From Dehalococcoidales bacterium (lineage in GTDB: Bacteria; Chloroflexota; Dehalococcoidia; Dehalococcoidales; JAFGLR01), in assembly GCA_016927955.1 (NCBI GenBank), contig JAFGLR010000024.1, forward strand, positions 1 through 35,377: 35,377 nucleotides of DNA, in the 5' to 3' direction. The notes beneath the pieces are model-generated. The model worked only from the letters and a program-made list of their open reading frames with translations. It had not been told where the DNA came from and did not search any database. Below are positions 123 through 16,348 of this stretch, piece by piece. Position 1 is the stretch's first letter, and the number at the start of each line of letters is the position of its first letter. The translations under genes and the position numbers were made by a program.

Positions 123-899
123 TTATTTACTGAGTACAATAGCGGCCGGGTCTATTTCAGTGCGTAATATCATTAGCTCTTCGTCAGTTGGTTCCGGACT
201 CTGAGGAACATTATCCGGAATAATGATATCGAAACTGGAATTTTCCTTTATTTGAGCTACGGTAACGCCCGGATGTATAGATAAGAGCTTCAATTTCTTT
301 GTCTCATCATCAAATCCGTATACACCTAGCTGAGTAATGACCCGATAAGGCCCGCAATCGCGTGGCAAGCCGGCCTTCTCACGGGCACCGGGACCATCCA
401 GATAACCGGGGGTCGTTAGAAAATCCACTTTCTTAACAAAGGTTCTGGCGGACTGGTTGGCGATGATTAAAATCAATTGTTTTGAGAAAGAACTTACATC
501 ATTGGCTCCACCGCTGCCCGGTAAACGAGTTTTTTGTAAATGCCAGTCACCGATTACAGTAGTGTTTATGTTACCGTAAATATCCATCTGTGCCGCACCC
601 AGGAAACCATAATCGATATAGCCGGCCTGAGCCATCGACATTACGTCGTGCATACTGGTGGCGGCGATACCTTCCCAATAAGTCCGGGATTCACCTACGG
701 AAATTGCCAGTTCCGGCATTCGCGGCCCGATTCCGCCCGCCTCGAAAACCATCACCAGATTCGGGGCATGAGTTTTTTGAGCTAACATACAGGCAATAAT
801 GGGCAAGCCGGTGCCAACAAATACGGTTTTGTTATCTTCAAGGACTTTGGACCCCATATAAGCCAGGTATTCCCTTACATTATATCTGTTCTCTGCCAT
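123..899 (-). CDS. CoA-transferase beta subunit (glutaconate CoA-transferase B / IpdB-like)
   Basis: 258-aa ORF; class I CoA-transferase features (VFEAGGIGPRMPELAISVGESRT, GAAQMDIYGNINTT, GSGGANDV); next to an alpha subunit. Confidence 0.88.
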   Translation of the reverse strand: MAENRYNVREYLAYMGSKVLEDNKTVFVGTGLPIIACMLAQKTHAPNLVMVFEAGGIGPRMPELAISVGESRTYWEGIAATSMHDVMSMAQAGYIDYGFLGAAQMDIYGNINTTVIGDWHLQKTRLPGSGGANDVSSFSKQLILIIANQSARTFVKKVDFLTTPGYLDGPGAREKAGLPRDCGPYRVITQLGVYGFDDETKKLKLLSIHPGVTVAQIKENSSFDIIIPDNVPQSPEPTDEELMILRTEIDPAAIVLSK

Positions 900-920
900 A
901 TCATCTGCTCCTGTCTATAT

Positions 921-1952
921 TTAGCCTACTTTTCGCCAGGGGGCTGTCATTGGTTCCCTGAGGAATTCGCGGCGTTTTAGGTAGTTCATCTTCTTAATCC
1001 CGCCGCATAATTCCAGATACTCTTCGAAATCTTTAACACCGAAGACATATTTATCCAGGTATTGCTGAACGCCCTCTTCGGTTTTAGAAAGGCTTAACCA
1101 TTCTGAAATATGGTCTTCATCATAATAATACATGTAAGGCATTTCGCCGGGGTGTGACCCATATGGGACTTCGCAAACGGCATCGACAACAAAGTAAGGA
1201 ATAATAGTTTTCCAGGGTTCCTTGCGGATGACTTCATTATCGATAATCTCTTCTGTGGTGATTATCAACCGTCTGGCGGCACGGGACAATTCGATATCTT
1301 CGGTTGGTGCTCCATCTATCTGGCAGTTACCGTATTTATCACAGCGGGTAACGTGGATGAAAGCGCAATCAGGATATGCTGCCGGAATAAGAGTAATCGG
1401 CCGTCCGGTATAAGGGTCTTTGACGACTTTAGCCGAGCTGTATTTGCCGGTATCGGTGCCGAGCATATTACGGGAAGGAATAAATGGTAAACCCATCATG
1501 GCAGCGAGGAAACGCCATTGATAAGCGGCGTTACTTAGTTCGGAAATTACCTTGGTTTTTCCAGTCTGTACCATACGGCGTGATGCAGGGGAGAGACCCC
1601 TTAATTCATGTCCGAAAGAATAAGCCGGTTCAACCTTGGCGATACAACCACAGCCTATCAACAAATCAAGGTCATGGACTGAAGTCTTACCGGCGAGTAG
1701 CATATTTCGTCTTTTCTGTCTGATAATTTCGTAGACGACAGCCATTGAAATCCGGATATGACCGAAACCACCGCTAGCGATGTAATCGCCGTCTTTGATA
1801 TATTTAGATACCGCTTCCGCTACGGGCATCGTTTTATCAACAAGAGCCCTGGTTTTATTTTTCTGTACCCACTCTCTGGCTTCATCCGGGTCGTGCCAGC
1901 CGATAAGTTCTCCTTCACCTTCGCTTAATATTTCCATTTCCGGAACGTCCAT
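921..1952 (-). CDS. CoA-transferase alpha subunit (GctA / IpdA-like)
   Basis: 343-aa ORF; SKYIKDGDYIASGGFGHIRISMAVVYEIIRQKRRNMLLAGKTSVHDLDLLIGCG; RBS AGGAGG upstream of the ATG. Confidence 0.88.
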   Translation of the reverse strand: MDVPEMEILSEGEGELIGWHDPDEAREWVQKNKTRALVDKTMPVAEAVSKYIKDGDYIASGGFGHIRISMAVVYEIIRQKRRNMLLAGKTSVHDLDLLIGCGCIAKVEPAYSFGHELRGLSPASRRMVQTGKTKVISELSNAAYQWRFLAAMMGLPFIPSRNMLGTDTGKYSSAKVVKDPYTGRPITLIPAAYPDCAFIHVTRCDKYGNCQIDGAPTEDIELSRAARRLIITTEEIIDNEVIRKEPWKTIIPYFVVDAVCEVPYGSHPGEMPYMYYYDEDHISEWLSLSKTEEGVQQYLDKYVFGVKDFEEYLELCGGIKKMNYLKRREFLREPMTAPWRKVG

Positions 1953-1998
1953 AAAAGCCTCCTGATTAATCGGTGTTTACAATTAAAATATCGTTATT

Positions 1999-2028
1999 AT
2001 TCTAACATCGTTTACGCTGGCTATTCAA
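1999..2028 (-). promoter_or_regulatory. Putative sigma70-like promoter of the CoA-transferase operon
   Basis: Minus strand TTGAAT (2028-2023), 18-bp spacer, TAGAAT (2004-1999). Confidence 0.4.
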
Positions 2029-4235: not shown

Positions 4236-4616
4236 CTATATTTCGTTGTCAGCTTTTTGTAATGTATCGCAGATAACTTTTTCGAGTTCATCCGGGGCGA
4301 TAGGCTTAATGAGGTAGTCGATAGCTCCAAGTTTCTTCGCCTCGGCTGTGGTCTCTTCGGAGGGATAGGCGGTGATGATGATGGACTTTATCCCCGGCTT
4401 TAGCGCTTTTACCTCTTTCAAGACCTCAAGGCCGGTTTTCCCCGGCAGTCTGATATCGAGAATAACAACGCCAAAGTCCTGTTTACTCATCATTTCCTGA
4501 GCTTCCTCGCCGGTTTCAGTAGTAGTCACCTCGTAACCGGCATCCGTGAGCCAGTCCTTTATCGATTCTCTAACAATAGCTTCATCATCAACAATCAATA
4601 TTCTACTTTTAGGCAT
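4236..4616 (-). CDS. Receiver-domain-only response regulator
   Basis: MPKSRILIVDDEAIVRESIKDWL...VVILDIRLPGKTGLEV...IITAYPS...DYLIKPI; start set at 4616 with RBS GGGGAGGTTC (ORF track over-extends to 4709). Confidence 0.9.
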   Translation of the reverse strand: MPKSRILIVDDEAIVRESIKDWLTDAGYEVTTTETGEEAQEMMSKQDFGVVILDIRLPGKTGLEVLKEVKALKPGIKSIIITAYPSEETTAEAKKLGAIDYLIKPIAPDELEKVICDTLQKADNEI

Positions 4617-4639
4617 TTTAGAACCTCCCCATTTTTCTT

Positions 4640-5128
4640 TCAGGGTTTTACTGTAATATTCGATGGGTCTAACCATAAACCAAGTTCCCTGGCTATCATA
4701 CTTAAGCAAACCGGTATAGCATCTGCGACTTCGGGAGTCAGTGCTTCGCTAAATGTACTCACATCCGCTGCTTCAATAGCAAAGATATCTATTTGTTGCG
4801 GTAGGTTGAGACCAAGTTGTTTCCCAAGTTGGACTATATCTACTAGACTGGCACTATGGCAGTGGGTAATATGTTCACTTGCTTTGAGTTCATCGGGTTT
4901 CAGATGATAAATATAGCCTGCTTTACCTTCCTTGGTTTGTATTGCATCGATGATGACGGCTCTATCATAGTCAAGCAGCAATTGAAGTAAATTGAGTCCT
5001 GAGGAACTGGATTCGATTATCGTAACTCCTTTATCATTAATTATATCCTGTAACTCACAGGCAATTTTTATCCCTATGCTATCATCACTGAGGATAGGAT
5101 TACCGAGACCTAGTATAAGAGTATTCAT
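4640..5128 (-). CDS. Hydrogenase maturation protease (M52 / HycI-HoxM family)
   Basis: MNTLILGLGNPILSDDSIGIKIACEL...AVIIDAIQTKEGKAGYIY typical of [NiFe] maturation endopeptidases. Confidence 0.87.
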   Translation of the reverse strand: MNTLILGLGNPILSDDSIGIKIACELQDIINDKGVTIIESSSSGLNLLQLLLDYDRAVIIDAIQTKEGKAGYIYHLKPDELKASEHITHCHSASLVDIVQLGKQLGLNLPQQIDIFAIEAADVSTFSEALTPEVADAIPVCLSMIARELGLWLDPSNITVKP

Positions 5129-5202: not shown

Positions 5203-7272
5203 CTATTTTTCGTCTATTTCGATATGCAGTGGTAGGTAAATTGTAAAAGTTGTACCATCGCCTATCTTACTTCGCACTTCTATTTTACCCTTATGGCGCT
5301 GTACTATTCCGTAGGCTATCGCGAGGCCTAAGCCTACACCCTTTACTTCCAGTTTGGTGGTAAAGAAGGGGGTAAACAACTTATTCATATTTTCCGGAGG
5401 AATTCCGATGCCAGTGTCCGAAACTTCAATCTTTATTTGGTTTGCACTTGCTGAAGAACGAAGAGTTAATTTCCCGCCTTGTGGCATTGCTTGGATGGCA
5501 TTTAAAATTAGATTGGTAAATACCTGCTGCAGTTGATCTGCGTCTGCCGTTATATCAGGTAATGCGGGGTCGAGTTCTTTTATTACCCGCACATGCTGCA
5601 ACTCCGCGGAATGAGAAGCAATGTCATAAGCCCGGTTCATAATCATATTAAGATTAGCTTGCTGGAATTTAGGCGATGACTGACGTGCGAAATCCAGTAA
5701 ATTTTTAATTAACTTAGTACTACGAATAAGTTCAAACTCCATCTTGGATAAATATTCGAGGGTAGTATTATTATCAATTTTACTTTCTTTTATTTTCTTG
5801 GCTATAAGCTGAGTATAAATAAGAACTCCGGACAGGGGATTATTTACTTCATGAGCAATAGATGCCGCCAGTTGGCCTAAAGATGTTAATTTCTCAGCCT
5901 GGATAAGCTGCTGTTGGCTGTTTTTCAACTGCTGAATTGATTCGCTGAGCTCCTGGTAAGCTTTACTCAGCTGTAATTGCATTTCTTTTTCTTTAGTTAC
6001 ATCCCTAGCAATACAAAGAAAACCAATGAGTTTCCCATCCTCTCTTATTAAGTTGGTAGTTAACATTAAAATCCATTCCGTTCCGTCTTTTCTAACCAGC
6101 CGCTGTTCATATGGTTGCTCATCTGTACTTCCATCTAATAACTTGTTTCTTATTTGACCGGCTAGTTGGAGGCTTTCCTCAGTTAAAAAAGTCCTCACAT
6201 TCATACCGATTAATTCTTCTAAACTGTAACCGCTAAGTGTCTCCGTAGCTTTATTCACCGTAGTCAAATAACCTTCCATATCGTGTACCCAGATTGCATC
6301 CTGAGCACTTTCAAATAGCTCGCGGTATCGTTGTTCTGATATACGCAGCTTCTCGGCGACCTCTATCTCCCTTTGGAATAACATCGCGTTTTCCGTCGCC
6401 GCACTAATCTGGTTGCCTATTACTGCCAATAGCTCAACTTCCTCATTATCAAAATACCGCCGGCTTTTTGACTGTACGCCTAACGTGCCTATCGGCTTCC
6501 CTTTAACACTCAGCGGAACTACAATTCTCGTCTCTTTAGATACATCCTCAACTAGCATAGGCTGCCCGGTATTGACCACTTTTTTATTGATACCAGACTC
6601 AGCCTCAACTCTAATAAGGTCTTGATAATTCCCTCCGTATGCTGCCAATGTTAGCCCTGAATTATCCCTGCCCAGCAAGTATATCCACGCGGCATCAACC
6701 CGTAATAAACCGATAATACTGCTAACAGCATTATCTAAAATCTGGCTCATTTCCTGTGATTGGGAGACTGTAGTGGAAATGCGGCTTATCGTCACCAGCT
6801 GTCTTTCTATTCTCTCGGAAGCTATAGCTTGAGATTGTAATTCTTCATGAGTCTTCTCAATAGTCGATAGTATTCTCCGTTGCTTCTCTTTTTCGCTTCT
6901 GTAGCTGTGAAACCACAGGTTTATCATCCAACCGATAAAAACTATTACAATAGTTTCAAACAAAGCGTCTGAAAAAAAATTCGAGATTAAGAAAACGCGG
7001 GGTAGCATGATGATCGTAGCAACGGCTAAACTGACTAAGCCCACCCTAATGCCGAAAAAAAAGCCGGCATAACCGATAGGCAGCAAAAGAAAAATTCTTT
7101 CTACAGCATGACGGCTTAAACCCAAAAAAGAAAACAGCGATGGTGAATCCAAGGAGAGAAGCTGCTGTGGATAATGCAGGATAACACCAACTATGAATAG
7201 TATCACTACCACCCAGAGGTGAAAATGAGGTATTGTTGCGGGTATATTTTTTATTCTATCTACGATATTCAT
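5203..7272 (-). CDS. Membrane sensor histidine kinase (N-terminal TM segment, GAF, PAS, HisKA, HATPase_c)
   Basis: Hydrophobic N-terminus; GAF-like region; PAS (RYRELFESAQDAIWVHDMEGYLTTVNKA); SLGQLAASIAHEVNNPLSGVL H-box; DTGIGIPPENMNKLFTPFFTTK and GVGLGLAIAYGIV ATPase boxes. Confidence 0.92.
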   Translation of the reverse strand: MNIVDRIKNIPATIPHFHLWVVVILFIVGVILHYPQQLLSLDSPSLFSFLGLSRHAVERIFLLLPIGYAGFFFGIRVGLVSLAVATIIMLPRVFLISNFFSDALFETIVIVFIGWMINLWFHSYRSEKEKQRRILSTIEKTHEELQSQAIASERIERQLVTISRISTTVSQSQEMSQILDNAVSSIIGLLRVDAAWIYLLGRDNSGLTLAAYGGNYQDLIRVEAESGINKKVVNTGQPMLVEDVSKETRIVVPLSVKGKPIGTLGVQSKSRRYFDNEEVELLAVIGNQISAATENAMLFQREIEVAEKLRISEQRYRELFESAQDAIWVHDMEGYLTTVNKATETLSGYSLEELIGMNVRTFLTEESLQLAGQIRNKLLDGSTDEQPYEQRLVRKDGTEWILMLTTNLIREDGKLIGFLCIARDVTKEKEMQLQLSKAYQELSESIQQLKNSQQQLIQAEKLTSLGQLAASIAHEVNNPLSGVLIYTQLIAKKIKESKIDNNTTLEYLSKMEFELIRSTKLIKNLLDFARQSSPKFQQANLNMIMNRAYDIASHSAELQHVRVIKELDPALPDITADADQLQQVFTNLILNAIQAMPQGGKLTLRSSASANQIKIEVSDTGIGIPPENMNKLFTPFFTTKLEVKGVGLGLAIAYGIVQRHKGKIEVRSKIGDGTTFTIYLPLHIEIDEK

Positions 7273-7423: not shown

Positions 7424-7882
7424 TCATTCGTTATCAAATGTCTTATCGAAATTGATAATATTACTGCGGTGGAACTTGTGAAACTCTACAAATTCACGCA
7501 ATTCCTTATTAAATTCCGGCACCAGTGCCCGTATAGTATTAATTTTTTTGCTTCGGCAATTCTCAAAAAGCCTTTCTATTAGCTGACTGCCTGTACCGCG
7601 GCCTTGATAGGCCGGGTCGATAATCATTCCCTGTAAAAGGCATACTTCTGTAAAAGGTATCATCAGGTACGTCAGGCGAGTCAGGATAAATCCGACAACT
7701 TTGCCATCAATTTCGGCGACTATGCTCAAATCAGCCGGGCCTCCCGGATTGGTGCTATCCATATCGGTATAGCTTAAAGAGCTCCTTCCATCACCGATTT
7801 TCCGGTCCAGTGCCAGAACGGCGTTAATGTCATTACGTGTCATCGGCCGGATTAATACTTTCTCTTTTTCACCTGTGCTCAT
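7424..7882 (-). CDS. GNAT family N-acetyltransferase
   Basis: VLIRPMTRNDINAVLALDR...LLQGMIIDPAYQGRGTGSQLIERLFE. Confidence 0.85.
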   Translation of the reverse strand: MSTGEKEKVLIRPMTRNDINAVLALDRKIGDGRSSLSYTDMDSTNPGGPADLSIVAEIDGKVVGFILTRLTYLMIPFTEVCLLQGMIIDPAYQGRGTGSQLIERLFENCRSKKINTIRALVPEFNKELREFVEFHKFHRSNIINFDKTFDNE

Positions 7883-8053: not shown

Positions 8054-9511
8054 TCACCCGAGCTTTCTTAAAAGGTTGCCTCGAGAGTTATAAACATATA
8101 TAGGTACCGGTGAACTACCATTAAGACTATGGGTCGCACAGGCGAGACAGAGGTCATACGGACGCCAGGCCATTTCCACCAGGTTCAATATTCCTTCGGT
8201 AATTTCCTTACCCGGTTGTATAACATACTTGGCAGCTTTGCCTACGGACATGTTTACGGCAGCTGCATTATGAACCGTAGCTACGATAAGATTTGTCTTT
8301 TTAATAACTCCCTTCTCATCGGTAATATAATGGTGTATAAGCGTTCCGCGCGGTGCTTCGAGAACGCCTATTCCTTCATCCGGTTTGGCGGTCGGTATCC
8401 TACGAATGTCCGGACTGGTAATCTCGGGGTCTCGGCTCAATTCCAGAAGCCGCTCAGCAGCTTGGAGAAGTTCAATAAGACGTGCCCAATGCGTTGCCAA
8501 AGTATGATGAACAGGCTTTCCTCCTAATGTTGCGAAGTATTTTTCGTAGTGTTCCTGAGCCAGTGGCGTTGCCATACCATCTGCAGCATTTAGTCTGGCC
8601 AGCGGAGCCACACGGAACACACCGCTATCAATCCCATCGACAAACCCTTTCCACCCCACTTTTTTCAAGAAGGGGAATTTTATATATGACCAGGGCTCTA
8701 CATGCTCCGCAATATGGTCGAGGTAATCTTTTGGAGCGAATTTGGCAAACTCTTTGCCGGTAGGATCAACTACTCTAAGCATTCCGTCATAGAAATTAAC
8801 CTTATTATTTGCATCTACCAATCCCATATAATAAGTGTTATGAGTGTATCCATCGCTAAGTATTAAATCTACATAAGCTTTGTTCTTCAAAACTATGTCA
8901 TCGAATACCTTTAGTGATAACTTGGCAAATTCTACTGATTCCAGGGCGATCTCTTCGATTTCTTTTCTTTCATCTTCTTTAAGTGCCTTACTGACACCTC
9001 CGGGAAGACCGAAAACCGGGTGGACGCCACGTCCGCCGATCTTTTCAATGATATGGTGATTCCTCATTCTGGTTTTTATTACAGCGCCCCCTAGTTCAAG
9101 CCCGACTTTCGCTATAACACCAATAATGTTACGTTCGGCTACCGGTGCATCGGGCCCCATTACAAAGTCAGGACCACCCAGAATGTAGAAATGGGTCGTG
9201 TGGTCGGTAACGTAAAAAGCATTGTACAGAAGTTCACGTAACTTCTTCGCCGGGCTGGGTGGGTCAACATGAAACAGGGCATCAAGAGTCTTTGTCGAAG
9301 CCAGATGATGTGCTTCTGGACAGACTCCGCAGATTCTCTGGGTAATCTGGGGCATATCTTCAGCCAGGCGGCCTTCAGTGAACTTTTCAAAGCCCCTTAG
9401 TTCAGGTACCTGAAAATACGTATTTGCGACTTCTCCGTTATCATTGAGGAAAATCTCTATTTTCCCGTGGCCTTCTAGACGAGTTATCGGATCGATGCTT
9501 ATCTTTCTCAT
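8054..9511 (-). CDS. mvhA: F420-non-reducing-type (group 3c) [NiFe] hydrogenase large subunit MvhA-like
   Basis: N-terminal RICGVCPEAHH, C-terminal DLCLACATHS plus a cleavable tail; beside MvhG/MvhD/Hdr homologs. Confidence 0.92.
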   Translation of the reverse strand: MRKISIDPITRLEGHGKIEIFLNDNGEVANTYFQVPELRGFEKFTEGRLAEDMPQITQRICGVCPEAHHLASTKTLDALFHVDPPSPAKKLRELLYNAFYVTDHTTHFYILGGPDFVMGPDAPVAERNIIGVIAKVGLELGGAVIKTRMRNHHIIEKIGGRGVHPVFGLPGGVSKALKEDERKEIEEIALESVEFAKLSLKVFDDIVLKNKAYVDLILSDGYTHNTYYMGLVDANNKVNFYDGMLRVVDPTGKEFAKFAPKDYLDHIAEHVEPWSYIKFPFLKKVGWKGFVDGIDSGVFRVAPLARLNAADGMATPLAQEHYEKYFATLGGKPVHHTLATHWARLIELLQAAERLLELSRDPEITSPDIRRIPTAKPDEGIGVLEAPRGTLIHHYITDEKGVIKKTNLIVATVHNAAAVNMSVGKAAKYVIQPGKEITEGILNLVEMAWRPYDLCLACATHSLNGSSPVPIYVYNSRGNLLRKLG

Positions 9512-10467
9512 TTAATTTTAGCCCTCCTCAATAATGACTCCGGAACAGAATACCTGTAAAAAGTTCCGGCCGGGTCGGCAATATCTTCGATTATTTTATT
9601 TATCTCATCCGGGTCGGTCGAATCGATAACCGAGGCTACAGCATTCATAAAATGGCTTCCTTGATCGATTACCCCGCTCACCGGTCCATAACAACCTGTA
9701 CATGGCATATTCGACTGGGGGCAGGGAGCACCGCAACCACCCCGTGTTGCCATACCGGCACAAAGAAGCCCTTGCTCCAACAAGCAAATTTCCGGGTCGG
9801 GAATAATCTGAAAAGGCCGGTAGAACCTGGTGACTTTTTTTACATCCTTTTTCCGTGGACAATCATCACAGACGGCTTTTACATTATCCGTAATTACGGT
9901 TCCCTTAGGCGGTAACTTGTTTTGAATCAATGCCTCCAGGGCAAGCCACGTCGTTTTTGCTTCCGGCGGACAGCCGGGAATTATATAATCGACTTCCACA
10001 GTCTGCGGTAGAGTTTTCACAGTATCATAAAATTCAGGTAGAGTAAGCGTCCCTTCGGGAACTTTGTAGCTTGTTTGAGGTATCGTTTTTGCTTCGTTAG
10101 CTGTCGATTGTGTTTCCAAATATGCCCGCTCAAAAATCATATCGCGGTTAAAAAAATTACCCAATCCGGGAATACCGCCGTTTTGAGCACAGGCTCCGTA
10201 AGATATCATCACCTTGGACTTTTCCCGCAGCATTTTAGCCATATGTTCCTGTTCGGAAGTCCGGATAGCCCCGTTAAACAGGCAGACATCGACACTTTTT
10301 TCCGGCATTGCCTCAATATCTTTATATTTTACATCTATAGCTACCGGCCAAAATACTATGTCCGCCACCTCAATTAGTTTTAATAGTTTCTCCCCAATTT
10401 GAAGCTGAGCAATTTCACAGCCGCCGCAACTGGAAGCCCAATATAGAGCCAATTTAATTTTTGCCAT
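9508..10467 (-). CDS. mvhG: [NiFe] hydrogenase small subunit MvhG-like
   Basis: WASSCGGCEIAQLQIGEKLL; IPGCPPEAKTTWLALEAL; CGAPCPQSNMPCTGCYGP FeS ligands; overlaps mvhA start by 4 bp. Confidence 0.9.
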   Translation of the reverse strand: MAKIKLALYWASSCGGCEIAQLQIGEKLLKLIEVADIVFWPVAIDVKYKDIEAMPEKSVDVCLFNGAIRTSEQEHMAKMLREKSKVMISYGACAQNGGIPGLGNFFNRDMIFERAYLETQSTANEAKTIPQTSYKVPEGTLTLPEFYDTVKTLPQTVEVDYIIPGCPPEAKTTWLALEALIQNKLPPKGTVITDNVKAVCDDCPRKKDVKKVTRFYRPFQIIPDPEICLLEQGLLCAGMATRGGCGAPCPQSNMPCTGCYGPVSGVIDQGSHFMNAVASVIDSTDPDEINKIIEDIADPAGTFYRYSVPESLLRRAKIK

Positions 10468-10885
10468 GATTACCCTCCGTGTTATTAGTTGCGAAAGGTC
10501 CCAGAGCCCTGACTTCCTCGGTCATCTCATTGACAACTTGAGCGTATTTTTCCCCTTCCGACGCTGAAACCCAATCCAGCCGAACCCTGCCTTCTTCTAT
10601 ACCGAATTGGGCTAACATCTTTTTGAGCAATGGTATTCGGCGCATTGTTTTATAATTTCCCTCGACATAATGGCAATCACCCGGATGACAACCTAAAATA
10701 AGGACTCCATCAGCTCCGGACTTAAAGGCCTTCAAAATAAAGTCCGGCTCTACCCTCGTACTACAGGGGACTCTGATTATTTTTACATTCGGCGCGAATT
10801 TCAACCTGCTCGTCCCTGCTAAATCAGCACCGCGGTAAGAACACCAGTTACATAAGAAGCCAACGATTTTCGGTTCCCAACTCAT
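10454..10885 (-). CDS. mvhD: MvhD-like electron-transfer [2Fe-2S] subunit
   Basis: PKIVGFLCNWCSYRGADLAGTSRLKF...RVPCSTRVEPDFILKAFKSGADGVLILGCHPGDCHY. Confidence 0.92.
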   Translation of the reverse strand: MSWEPKIVGFLCNWCSYRGADLAGTSRLKFAPNVKIIRVPCSTRVEPDFILKAFKSGADGVLILGCHPGDCHYVEGNYKTMRRIPLLKKMLAQFGIEEGRVRLDWVSASEGEKYAQVVNEMTEEVRALGPFATNNTEGNHGKN

Positions 10886-10896
10886 GGTTTTACCTC

Positions 10897-11775
10897 CTAA
10901 ACTCGTACCTGTAAATAAGGTTCTATGGCTTTTCGTACCGGAGATATATTTTTATCCAGTCCTAATTCAACCGGGTTAATTCCGAAAGCAATGCCCATTA
11001 GCTGGGTAAGAGCCATAATTGGCATCTTAAAATTAGTTCCGTTCCGGCTTTTAATACGGCCCTGGTTGGCGTCTAAATTGGTAAAACATAGCGGGCATAA
11101 TGTTGTCGATATGCACTCACCGCCATGCCGCTGTACATCATCGAGTATTTTATAAAGCAATTTGTAGACCATATCTTTCTGGCTGAAAAGCTGGGCTCCA
11201 CCACAGCACTGGGCTTTTAGCGGGAAGAAAACAGATTCTGCTCCTAATCTTTCGGCTATCTGGTCCTGCCAAACGGGAAACTCGAAATCATCCGGACCGA
11301 ACGGTCTTGACTGATGACACCCGTAATAACTGGACACCTTGAGACCTTTGAGAGGGTAGCGTACTTTCGCGGCGATAACATCCAGACCGATATCGTTAAC
11401 GAAAACGTCTACCAGGTTACGTATGCGTGCCGTTCCTTCATAACGAAGGTCGGATGCTGCTAGAGCTTTCTTGACCTGATCCCTTACTCTCGGGTCGCTG
11501 GTGAAAGCTACATGAGCGCTCATTAGGTTCCGGTAGCAGCAACTGCACGGTACTACGATATCAAGACCGAGTTTTTCTGCCAGTACCAGGTTACGACTAG
11601 CCATTGCCACTGCTGCGAGTTCATTAATTGATTCACCGGGACACCCGCAACAGGTCCAATCAGGTAATTCTATAAGCTCAATGTCCAATACCTTAGCTAT
11701 TGCATCGATAGATGATTGAATAGGTTTACCGGTGGTCTCCATCGCACAGCCGGGGTAATAAGTATACCGCTTCAT
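10897..11775 (-). CDS. hdrB: Heterodisulfide reductase subunit B-like (two CCG domains)
   Basis: YYPGCAMETTGK...WTCCGCPGES...CSCCYRN and YYGCHQSRPF...QCCGGAQ...CPLCFTNLD. Confidence 0.92.
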   Translation of the reverse strand: MKRYTYYPGCAMETTGKPIQSSIDAIAKVLDIELIELPDWTCCGCPGESINELAAVAMASRNLVLAEKLGLDIVVPCSCCYRNLMSAHVAFTSDPRVRDQVKKALAASDLRYEGTARIRNLVDVFVNDIGLDVIAAKVRYPLKGLKVSSYYGCHQSRPFGPDDFEFPVWQDQIAERLGAESVFFPLKAQCCGGAQLFSQKDMVYKLLYKILDDVQRHGGECISTTLCPLCFTNLDANQGRIKSRNGTNFKMPIMALTQLMGIAFGINPVELGLDKNISPVRKAIEPYLQVRV

Positions 11776-12344
11776 TATTTACCTCCTGCCTTTTGCATTT
11801 CATGCACTCTATTCATAATGGCAGCAACTTCTTTGCCGCCTTTGACTTTACGAGGCGGTAATATCGGCATGAGTCCGCGGGTAACCAAAGACCATGCCAG
11901 CCCTATATTTTTAAAGCCCAAGAGAATATTCGAGGGTAAATAAAACCGCAGTGCCATCCCTAATTCCCAGACCCGTCCCTGCTTCATCGCTTCACGGAGA
12001 CTCCGGAATAGTTTTAACGTCGGCGTCTTAGGCCGGTACCCTTCGCGTTCTGCAATCGCCTCTACAGCGTGAATCAGTTGTGTAGGGTTAATTCCCCTTG
12101 GACACCTTACCGTACACAGATAGCAGGTAACGCAATTGAATACAGAGCTGCTTGAAAGAACCTCTTCTCTTTTACCTGCACGAATCATAGCGATGATTTT
12201 GCGCGGCGGGTATTGCCACCACTCAACGGTGGTACAGGAACCGCTGCAAACGCCGCACTGAATACACTCATTAATTTTCTCGCCCCCCGGTTCAGCGGCA
12301 ACTTCATCTACGAATGTCTTGGCTCCCCTGATTGTCGTCGGCAT
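11775..12344 (-). CDS. hdrC: Heterodisulfide reductase subunit C-like
   Basis: CIQCGVCSGSC and CVTCYLCTVRCPRGINP 4Fe-4S motifs; start set at 12344 (MPTTIRGAK) with upstream AAAGGAG. Confidence 0.9.
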   Translation of the reverse strand: MPTTIRGAKTFVDEVAAEPGGEKINECIQCGVCSGSCTTVEWWQYPPRKIIAMIRAGKREEVLSSSSVFNCVTCYLCTVRCPRGINPTQLIHAVEAIAEREGYRPKTPTLKLFRSLREAMKQGRVWELGMALRFYLPSNILLGFKNIGLAWSLVTRGLMPILPPRKVKGGKEVAAIMNRVHEMQKAGGK

Positions 12345-12383
12345 CCATACACTCTCCTTTCGTAGTTTATTATTTCGCATTAA

Positions 12384-15790: not shown

Positions 15791-16270
15791 TTACATAAGT
15801 TTTTCAAGCTGGTCTGGGGAGAAAGGTTTAACCAAATAATCGGCAGCCCCGGCTTTCATTGCCTTGACCGCCAAGTCTATAGAAGGATAGGCAGTGATAA
15901 TAATAGATTTAATATGTGGTTTTAATTCTTTAACTTCTTTTAATACTTGAAGCCCGCTTTTCCCGGTGAGCTTAACATCTATAACCATTACATCAAAATC
16001 TTGTTTTTTAATCATGTCCAGTGCTTTCTCACCGGACTCAACGGCAGTTACTTCATAACCATCCTTTAACCAGTCTGTTAAGGAATCACGCATTATTTTT
16101 TCATCATCAACAATAAGGACGGACTGTTTCCTACCAGGCCGTCCTTCGATATTATCATTTACTAATTTGGTAATATATTCCTGCATCGAAATACCTTCGT
16201 AAGCACACTTAACCTTCAACTTGGTATAGAGCTCTAAGGGTATTTTTATATGTATGTCTCTCAGGTCCAT
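15791..16270 (-). CDS. Ribbon-helix-helix - receiver (RHH-REC) fusion response regulator
   Basis: N-terminus MDLRDIHIKIPLELYTKLKVKCAYEGISMQEYITKLVNDNIE fits an Arc/CopG/MetJ-type RHH; then SVLIVDDEKIMRDSL...VMVIDVKLTGKSGL...IITAYPS...DYLVKPFSPDQLEKLM*. Confidence 0.85.
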   Translation of the reverse strand: MDLRDIHIKIPLELYTKLKVKCAYEGISMQEYITKLVNDNIEGRPGRKQSVLIVDDEKIMRDSLTDWLKDGYEVTAVESGEKALDMIKKQDFDVMVIDVKLTGKSGLQVLKEVKELKPHIKSIIITAYPSIDLAVKAMKAGAADYLVKPFSPDQLEKLM

Positions 16271-16283
16271 ATTACTTACCTAA

Positions 16284-16315
16284 GTGTACATTTGTACTAA
16301 GGTACTAATGTACAC
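16284..16315. promoter_or_regulatory. Candidate RHH operator: four tandem 8-bp GTAC boxes in a 32-bp near-palindrome
   Basis: GTGTACAT|TTGTACTA|AGGTACTA|ATGTACAC; GTAC cores at 16286, 16294, 16302 and 16310 (exact 8-bp period); outer arms GTGTACATT/AATGTACAC; 14 bp upstream of the RHH-REC start codon. Confidence 0.75.
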
Positions 16316-16320
16316 GCATA

Positions 16321-16348
16321 ATTTTATAGTATATTATCATTAAGTCAA
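16321..16348 (-). promoter_or_regulatory. Putative sigma70-like promoter for the RHH-REC/hdr/mvh operon
   Basis: Minus strand TTGACT (16348-16343), 16-bp spacer, TAAAAT (16326-16321), immediately upstream of the GTAC array. Confidence 0.5.

Follow-up and report, generated by a model that had tools for sequence, protein, structure and literature searches.

A ribbon-helix-helix receiver fusion linked to tandem 8-bp boxes and a hydrogenase operon in Dehalococcoidia

DNA-binding response regulators mostly use helix-turn-helix (HTH) outputs. A gene on contig JAFGLR010000024.1 of a Dehalococcoidales bacterium (35,377 nt, analysed in full and referred to below as the window) encodes a protein in which a ribbon-helix-helix (RHH) domain stands ahead of the receiver (REC) domain, and raises the question of what DNA such a protein would recognise and which genes it would control. 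The initial annotation had described it as an RHH-REC fusion, and this description is upheld by Pfam, by PDB sequence matches and by a model of residues 1–49. The gene lies on the minus strand, its reading frame is open throughout, and the two domains are separated by a linker of 8–9 residues (Table 1).

The receiver is complete in all its catalytic residues. Pfam Response_reg matches residues 51–157 (E=1e-29), the full-length AlphaFold2 model matches REC structures, and the acidic pair (D55/D56), the phospho-acceptor (D98), T126 and K148 are all present, so that the PF00072 fold is found together with the acidic pair, Asp, Thr/Ser and Lys. D56, D98, T126 and K148 are invariant across the aligned homologs, while D55 can be E. 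The early stop reported previously is confirmed, as the C-terminus (...SPDQLEKLM, then stop) falls inside alpha5. The shortening of this helix is real, but it is confined to one subclade and is not a defining feature of the family. The proteins of L040 and L044 share this end point in the alignment (...LERLI, then stop), indicating that the shortening is old in this subclade, whereas the remaining RHH-RECs, including a paralog in the same genome, have a longer alpha5, with about 11 or more extra residues. Being subclade-specific, the shortening cannot be a general mechanism. Because the protein ends inside alpha5 it does not belong to the OmpR, NarL, NtrC, LytR or ActR classes; NCBIfam models of regulators of these types match the REC only, far below their cut-offs.

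Several lines of evidence identify the N-terminus as an RHH domain. The Pfam family RHH_10 matches the window protein at E=4e-4, under the family cut-off, and is matched by 7 of 9 homologous N-termini; the N-terminus of the same-genome paralog, taken in isolation, passes the ParG cut-off (26.7 bits vs 21.4). A profile of the 9 N-termini, compared with PDB sequences, gave only three matches, all to RHH proteins (ParG, Mnt, SvtR). Structure prediction, which had been proposed as the check on this domain, gave an RHH-like fold: modelled by AlphaFold2 as a single chain, residues 1–49 form an extended segment (1–11), a helix (12–25), a turn and a second helix (29–42), with a pLDDT of about 87 in the helices. 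With this model Foldseek placed ParG first (prob 0.98), further matches being MatP, SvtR, VapB, CopG, Arc and AmrZ; none of the E-values was below 0.1, as is to be expected of a chain of only 49 residues. In the AlphaFold2 model of the whole protein, made with 5 sequences, residues 1–26 were of low confidence, while residues 1–49 alone gave clear helices. The segment therefore shows the arrangement of the RHH superfamily, a beta-strand, helix A and helix B within about 45 aa, and has RHH proteins as its relatives. Conservation within the strand is highest at His7, which is invariant, and at residue 9, which is always Lys or Arg (9 homologs). On a strand spanning about residues 5–11, D5, H7 and K9 would be expected to face outward, and the conservation of the last two is suggestive of a dimer beta-ribbon inserted in the DNA major groove.

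Judged by gene order, RHH-REC is apparently the first gene of an hdrACB-mvhDGA operon that also holds a histidine kinase. The genes that follow it, down to a REC-only gene, have the same orientation and are separated by short gaps. The Hdr and Mvh subunits are named by similarity, several of the NCBIfam matches being below curated cut-offs. The REC-only ORF, as listed, has a TTG start inside the HycI gene; its true start is probably an internal methionine (MPKSR...) at about 4619.

Table 1. Features of the window, with the REC-sulfhydrogenase fusions of other loci
Feature	Coordinates	Strand	Basis or remark
REC-only paralog	4236..4709	-	57% identity to RHH-REC, residues 30-158; tree
HycI-type hydrogenase maturation protease	4640..5128	-	Pfam 8e-15; NCBIfam hydrog_prot above cut-off
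GAF-PAS histidine kinase, 689 aa, hydrophobic N-terminus	5203..7272	-	Pfam HisKA, HATPase_c
GNAT-family acetyltransferase	7424..7882	-	Pfam Acetyltransf_1 8e-12
MvhA/VhuA-like [NiFe]-hydrogenase large subunit	8054..9511	-	Pfam NiFeSe_Hases 9e-32
MvhG/VhuG-like [NiFe]-hydrogenase small subunit	9508..10467	-	NCBIfam below curated cut-offs; synteny
MvhD/VhuD-like subunit	10454..10885	-	NCBIfam below curated cut-offs; synteny
HdrB-like subunit	10897..11775	-	NCBIfam below curated cut-offs; synteny
HdrC-like subunit	11775..12380	-	NCBIfam below curated cut-offs; synteny
HdrA-like FAD/Fe-S subunit, 1114 aa	12384..15728	-	62 nt downstream of RHH-REC; synteny L040/L044/L071
RHH-REC response regulator	15791..16270 (stop codon included)	-	159 aa; ATG at 16270, stop at 15791
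REC domain, residues 50-159	15794..16123	-	D55/D56, D98, T126, K148; alpha5 shortened
RHH domain, residues 1-41 (RHH ~5-41)	16148..16270	-	Profile, PDB sequence and model evidence
Predicted operator, four perfect GTAC boxes at exact 8-bp spacing	16286..16313	none	
Predicted sigma-70 promoter, TTGACT-16-TAAAAT	16321..16348	-	Consensus match; geometry common to orthologs
REC-sulfhydrogenase fusions	L053 1814-4153; L055 3213-5588; L056 7573-9909	all -	

The hydrogenase neighbourhood is conserved. Hdr/Mvh genes adjoin 8 of the 11 listed RHH-REC genes, in two gene orders. The order RHH-REC, hdrACB, mvhDGA, kinase is kept in genomes G382 and G460. In the second arrangement (L045, L046, L047, L042 and L049) RHH-REC and HdrA-like genes are divergently oriented, and in several cases RHH-REC is followed by mvhG/mvhA or mvhD. 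The other three genes, the same-genome paralog among them, have no adjacent Hdr/Mvh genes. A homolog of the window kinase lies after mvhA in L044 and L071, and this linkage makes the kinase a good candidate for the partner of RHH-REC, the REC-only protein being another possible target. A second kinase of the same genome (L070, nt 454–2019, plus strand), with 63% identity to the window kinase over the catalytic part, also follows the end of an MvhA-like gene, indicating that this kinase family tracks hydrogenase clusters. At three other loci (Table 1) a REC is fused ahead of an electron-transfer protein of the sulfhydrogenase/anaerobic sulfite reductase beta+gamma type (780–792 aa). These fusions adjoin MvhG/MvhA-like genes and, at two of the three, HycI as well; here phosphorylation could control an enzyme subunit directly.

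A systematic search within the Chloroflexota recovered at least 11 RHH-REC genes in at least 10 Dehalococcoidia/Chloroflexota genomes, both from the same taxonomic order (G382, G460) and from other families of the class (G326, G275, G341, G178, G369, G135), as well as from named Dehalococcoidia or Chloroflexi genomes. Loci L040, L041 and L043 are apparently contigs of G460, G369 and G135, and each was counted once. No further example was found among 400 sampled genomes of the phylum. In a tree of REC domains all 11 listed RHH-RECs form one clade (support 91/90), with a single label change compared to 9.3 when labels were shuffled; the simplest reading is that the fusion arose once. The nearest kin of the clade are hydrogenase-linked RECs, namely the REC-only protein of the window and the RECs fused to sulfhydrogenase subunits. 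The same-genome paralog (L002, nt 1459–2013, minus strand) lies near a MetF-like gene. Outside the phylum, tblastn matches on Rhizobium and Haladaptatus plasmids that appeared to include the N-terminus were rejected as RHH-RECs because the match begins upstream of the annotated start; a match over the N-terminus on a Sinorhizobium plasmid has no annotated start for comparison.

Tandem boxes had been noted, and four exact GTACNNNN units do occupy the predicted operator. With 3 mismatches allowed, the box pattern gave 2 overlapping matches in the window compared to 0.05 expected, and in a genome-wide pattern search the three-box GTAC pattern occurred nowhere else in the source genome. In the promoter of the paralog, two GTAT boxes and two ATAC boxes, spaced by 8 bp, surround a 12-bp centre, and this arrangement too occurs only once in the genome. 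Arrays of (G/A)TA(C/T) at this spacing are found upstream of 10 of the 11 listed RHH-REC genes, the one without being L050 (G135). The upstream region of L048 has a single 8-bp pair, and that of L049 has no pair within 200 nt, four boxes spaced by 8 bp lying slightly farther up, toward the divergent HdrA gene. Across 12 regions upstream of RHH or RHH-REC genes, 25 pairs of GTAC, GTAT or ATAC at 8 bp were counted compared to 0.6 expected (largest count in 500 shuffles, 4), and neighbouring spacings of 4–11 bp showed no comparable excess; secondary peaks at 20, 24 and 28 bp arise from the same arrays. When only one region of 100 nt was taken per lineage, there were 11 pairs, distributed over all 7 regions, compared to 0.29 expected (largest count in 2000 shuffles, 3). 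Two or more pairs preceded only 5 of 140 other genes of the same loci, and all five have an intergenic region in common with an RHH or RHH-REC gene.

Homologs of the RHH domain that have no REC (L051, nt 9747–10208, and L072, nt 9683–9994, both minus strand) carry the same 8-bp arrays, which indicates that the boxes go with the RHH domain and either existed before the REC fusion or are independent of it. Some of these homologs have a methyltransferase-like or SbcC-like neighbour gene. The bare GTAC pattern is unspecific without regard to position: an exact three-box scan of 393 genomes of the class gave matches in 17, a reversed control gave a similar number of genomes, and six of the arrays, when read, had no RHH gene nearby. 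The comparison across genomes strongly supports an association of the RHH domain with tandem boxes, which are constant in spacing (within the 7–8 bp of such operators) and placed at the promoter of the presumed target. RHH-REC probably binds the 8-base repeats at its own operon promoter.

In the window the operator starts 7 nt past the predicted -10 element, over the expected transcription start. Between the best or second-best -10 and the first box there are 7–10 nt in L040, L044, L045, L046 and L047 (in the first two of these loci a GTTC variant was counted as the initial box); in L048, L051 and L072 the -10 is overlapped by the boxes. The promoters are consensus matches, and promoter-like sites are about as numerous as in shuffled sequence. 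Most loci have their boxes on the -10 or no farther than about 10 nt downstream, the usual place of a repressor, and this position favours repression. The reading preferred here, and a probable one, is that RHH-REC is a kinase-controlled, autoregulating repressor of the hydrogenase operon that occupies MetJ-like box arrays.

A less likely reading, with a modest share of the probability, is that RHH-REC activates or toggles, either because its phosphorylated form recruits polymerase to the hydrogenase operon or because separate arrays activate the divergent HdrA genes and repress RHH-REC. RHH proteins of the AmrZ type both activate and repress (PMC3325190), and L045–L047, L042 and L049 each have an array located toward the divergent HdrA genes, over 100 nt upstream of RHH-REC; it is the arrays nearest to RHH-REC, with the position just described, that speak against activation. 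It is improbable that the RHH acts alone as an unregulated autorepressor, with the REC serving chiefly as a sink for phosphate or as a module for protein-protein contact with the kinase. The arrays before REC-less homologs would suit such an arrangement, as would the REC-only and REC-enzyme paralogs of the neighbourhood and the short alpha5 of one subclade, but the fusion has been kept across divergent families with every REC catalytic residue intact. Very improbable is a role of the RHH solely as a dimerization module or antitoxin-like remnant, the boxes being bound by another factor. Many RHH domains do come from antitoxins or partition proteins, and the matches to RHH_10 and ParG are weak; against this, the arrays are confined to promoters of RHH and RHH-REC genes and follow the RHH even where the REC is absent, and no toxin gene is adjacent to RHH-REC in the window. 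Although the source assembly is fragmented (177 contigs, 6% contamination), an assembly or gene-calling artefact is refuted by the open frame and by orthologs of the same architecture in nine other genomes.

MetJ, the methionine repressor of E. coli, binds as RHH dimers side by side on tandem 8-bp palindromic met boxes, and in its combination of RHH and tandem 8-bp boxes RHH-REC resembles it. The two differ in that MetJ has no REC and uses S-adenosylmethionine (SAM) as its co-repressor, and the core of the MetJ box is AGACGTCT while that of the boxes ahead of RHH-REC is GTAC. Since no MetJ model is among the Pfam and NCBIfam matches listed, and a REC replaces the SAM-binding C-terminal part, the protein is not a member of the MetJ family. 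The closest matches in sequence and fold are ParG, Mnt, CopG and omega, with ParG the top PDB match in both searches; omega recognises repeats of 7 bp, with one dimer on each (PMC4803016). These proteins have no receiver, are mostly plasmid or phage regulators, and have no tie to a histidine kinase. A DNA-binding domain ahead of the REC is not unique to RHH-REC, being found in HTH-REC regulators such as archaeal LtrR, but there the domain is HTH rather than RHH and the proteins come from haloarchaea and Methanosarcina (PMC5847659). A literature search for an RHH-REC response regulator found only the RHH-HisKA-REC protein of Lokiarchaeum, which unites RHH and two-component domains in one chain but is a hybrid with HisKA rather than a simple response regulator, and for which no operator or operon is given (PMC5847659); the output-domain surveys of Galperin (2006, 2010), where a prior listing is possible, were outside the scope of that search.

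In the proposed mechanism, RHH dimers would read the 8-bp GTAC-type boxes through the beta-ribbon, with His7 and Lys/Arg9 directed toward the bases, and adjacent dimers would fill the four-box array over the -10/+1 of the shared promoter. The filled array would block transcription of RHH-REC together with the hdrACB-mvhDGA operon. The histidine kinase of the operon would phosphorylate Asp98 of the REC, and this would alter the loading of dimers on the array; that phosphorylation controls cooperative loading, as had been suggested, is plausible. A more specific version is put forward tentatively, as somewhat less than an even prospect: a MetJ-style array switch in which aspartyl phosphate takes the place of the small-molecule co-repressor, the phosphorylated receivers of adjacent RHH dimers pairing along successive 8-bp boxes, so that the kinase would set the cooperative filling of the array and, through it, the expression of the hydrogenase.

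To our knowledge, the regulation of Hdr/Mvh in the little-studied Chloroflexota is largely unknown. The RHH-REC family has few members, a single apparent origin and an operator code that can be read, and it is found at an Hdr/Mvh electron-transfer (hydrogen-oxidising) operon; since a short piece of synthetic DNA and a protein of 159 aa suffice, the system is directly testable. The joining of a REC to an RHH domain offers a way of linking phosphorylation to the occupancy of a box array and, if the array switch operated by a phosphorylated REC proves true, it would represent a separate class of DNA-binding response regulators.
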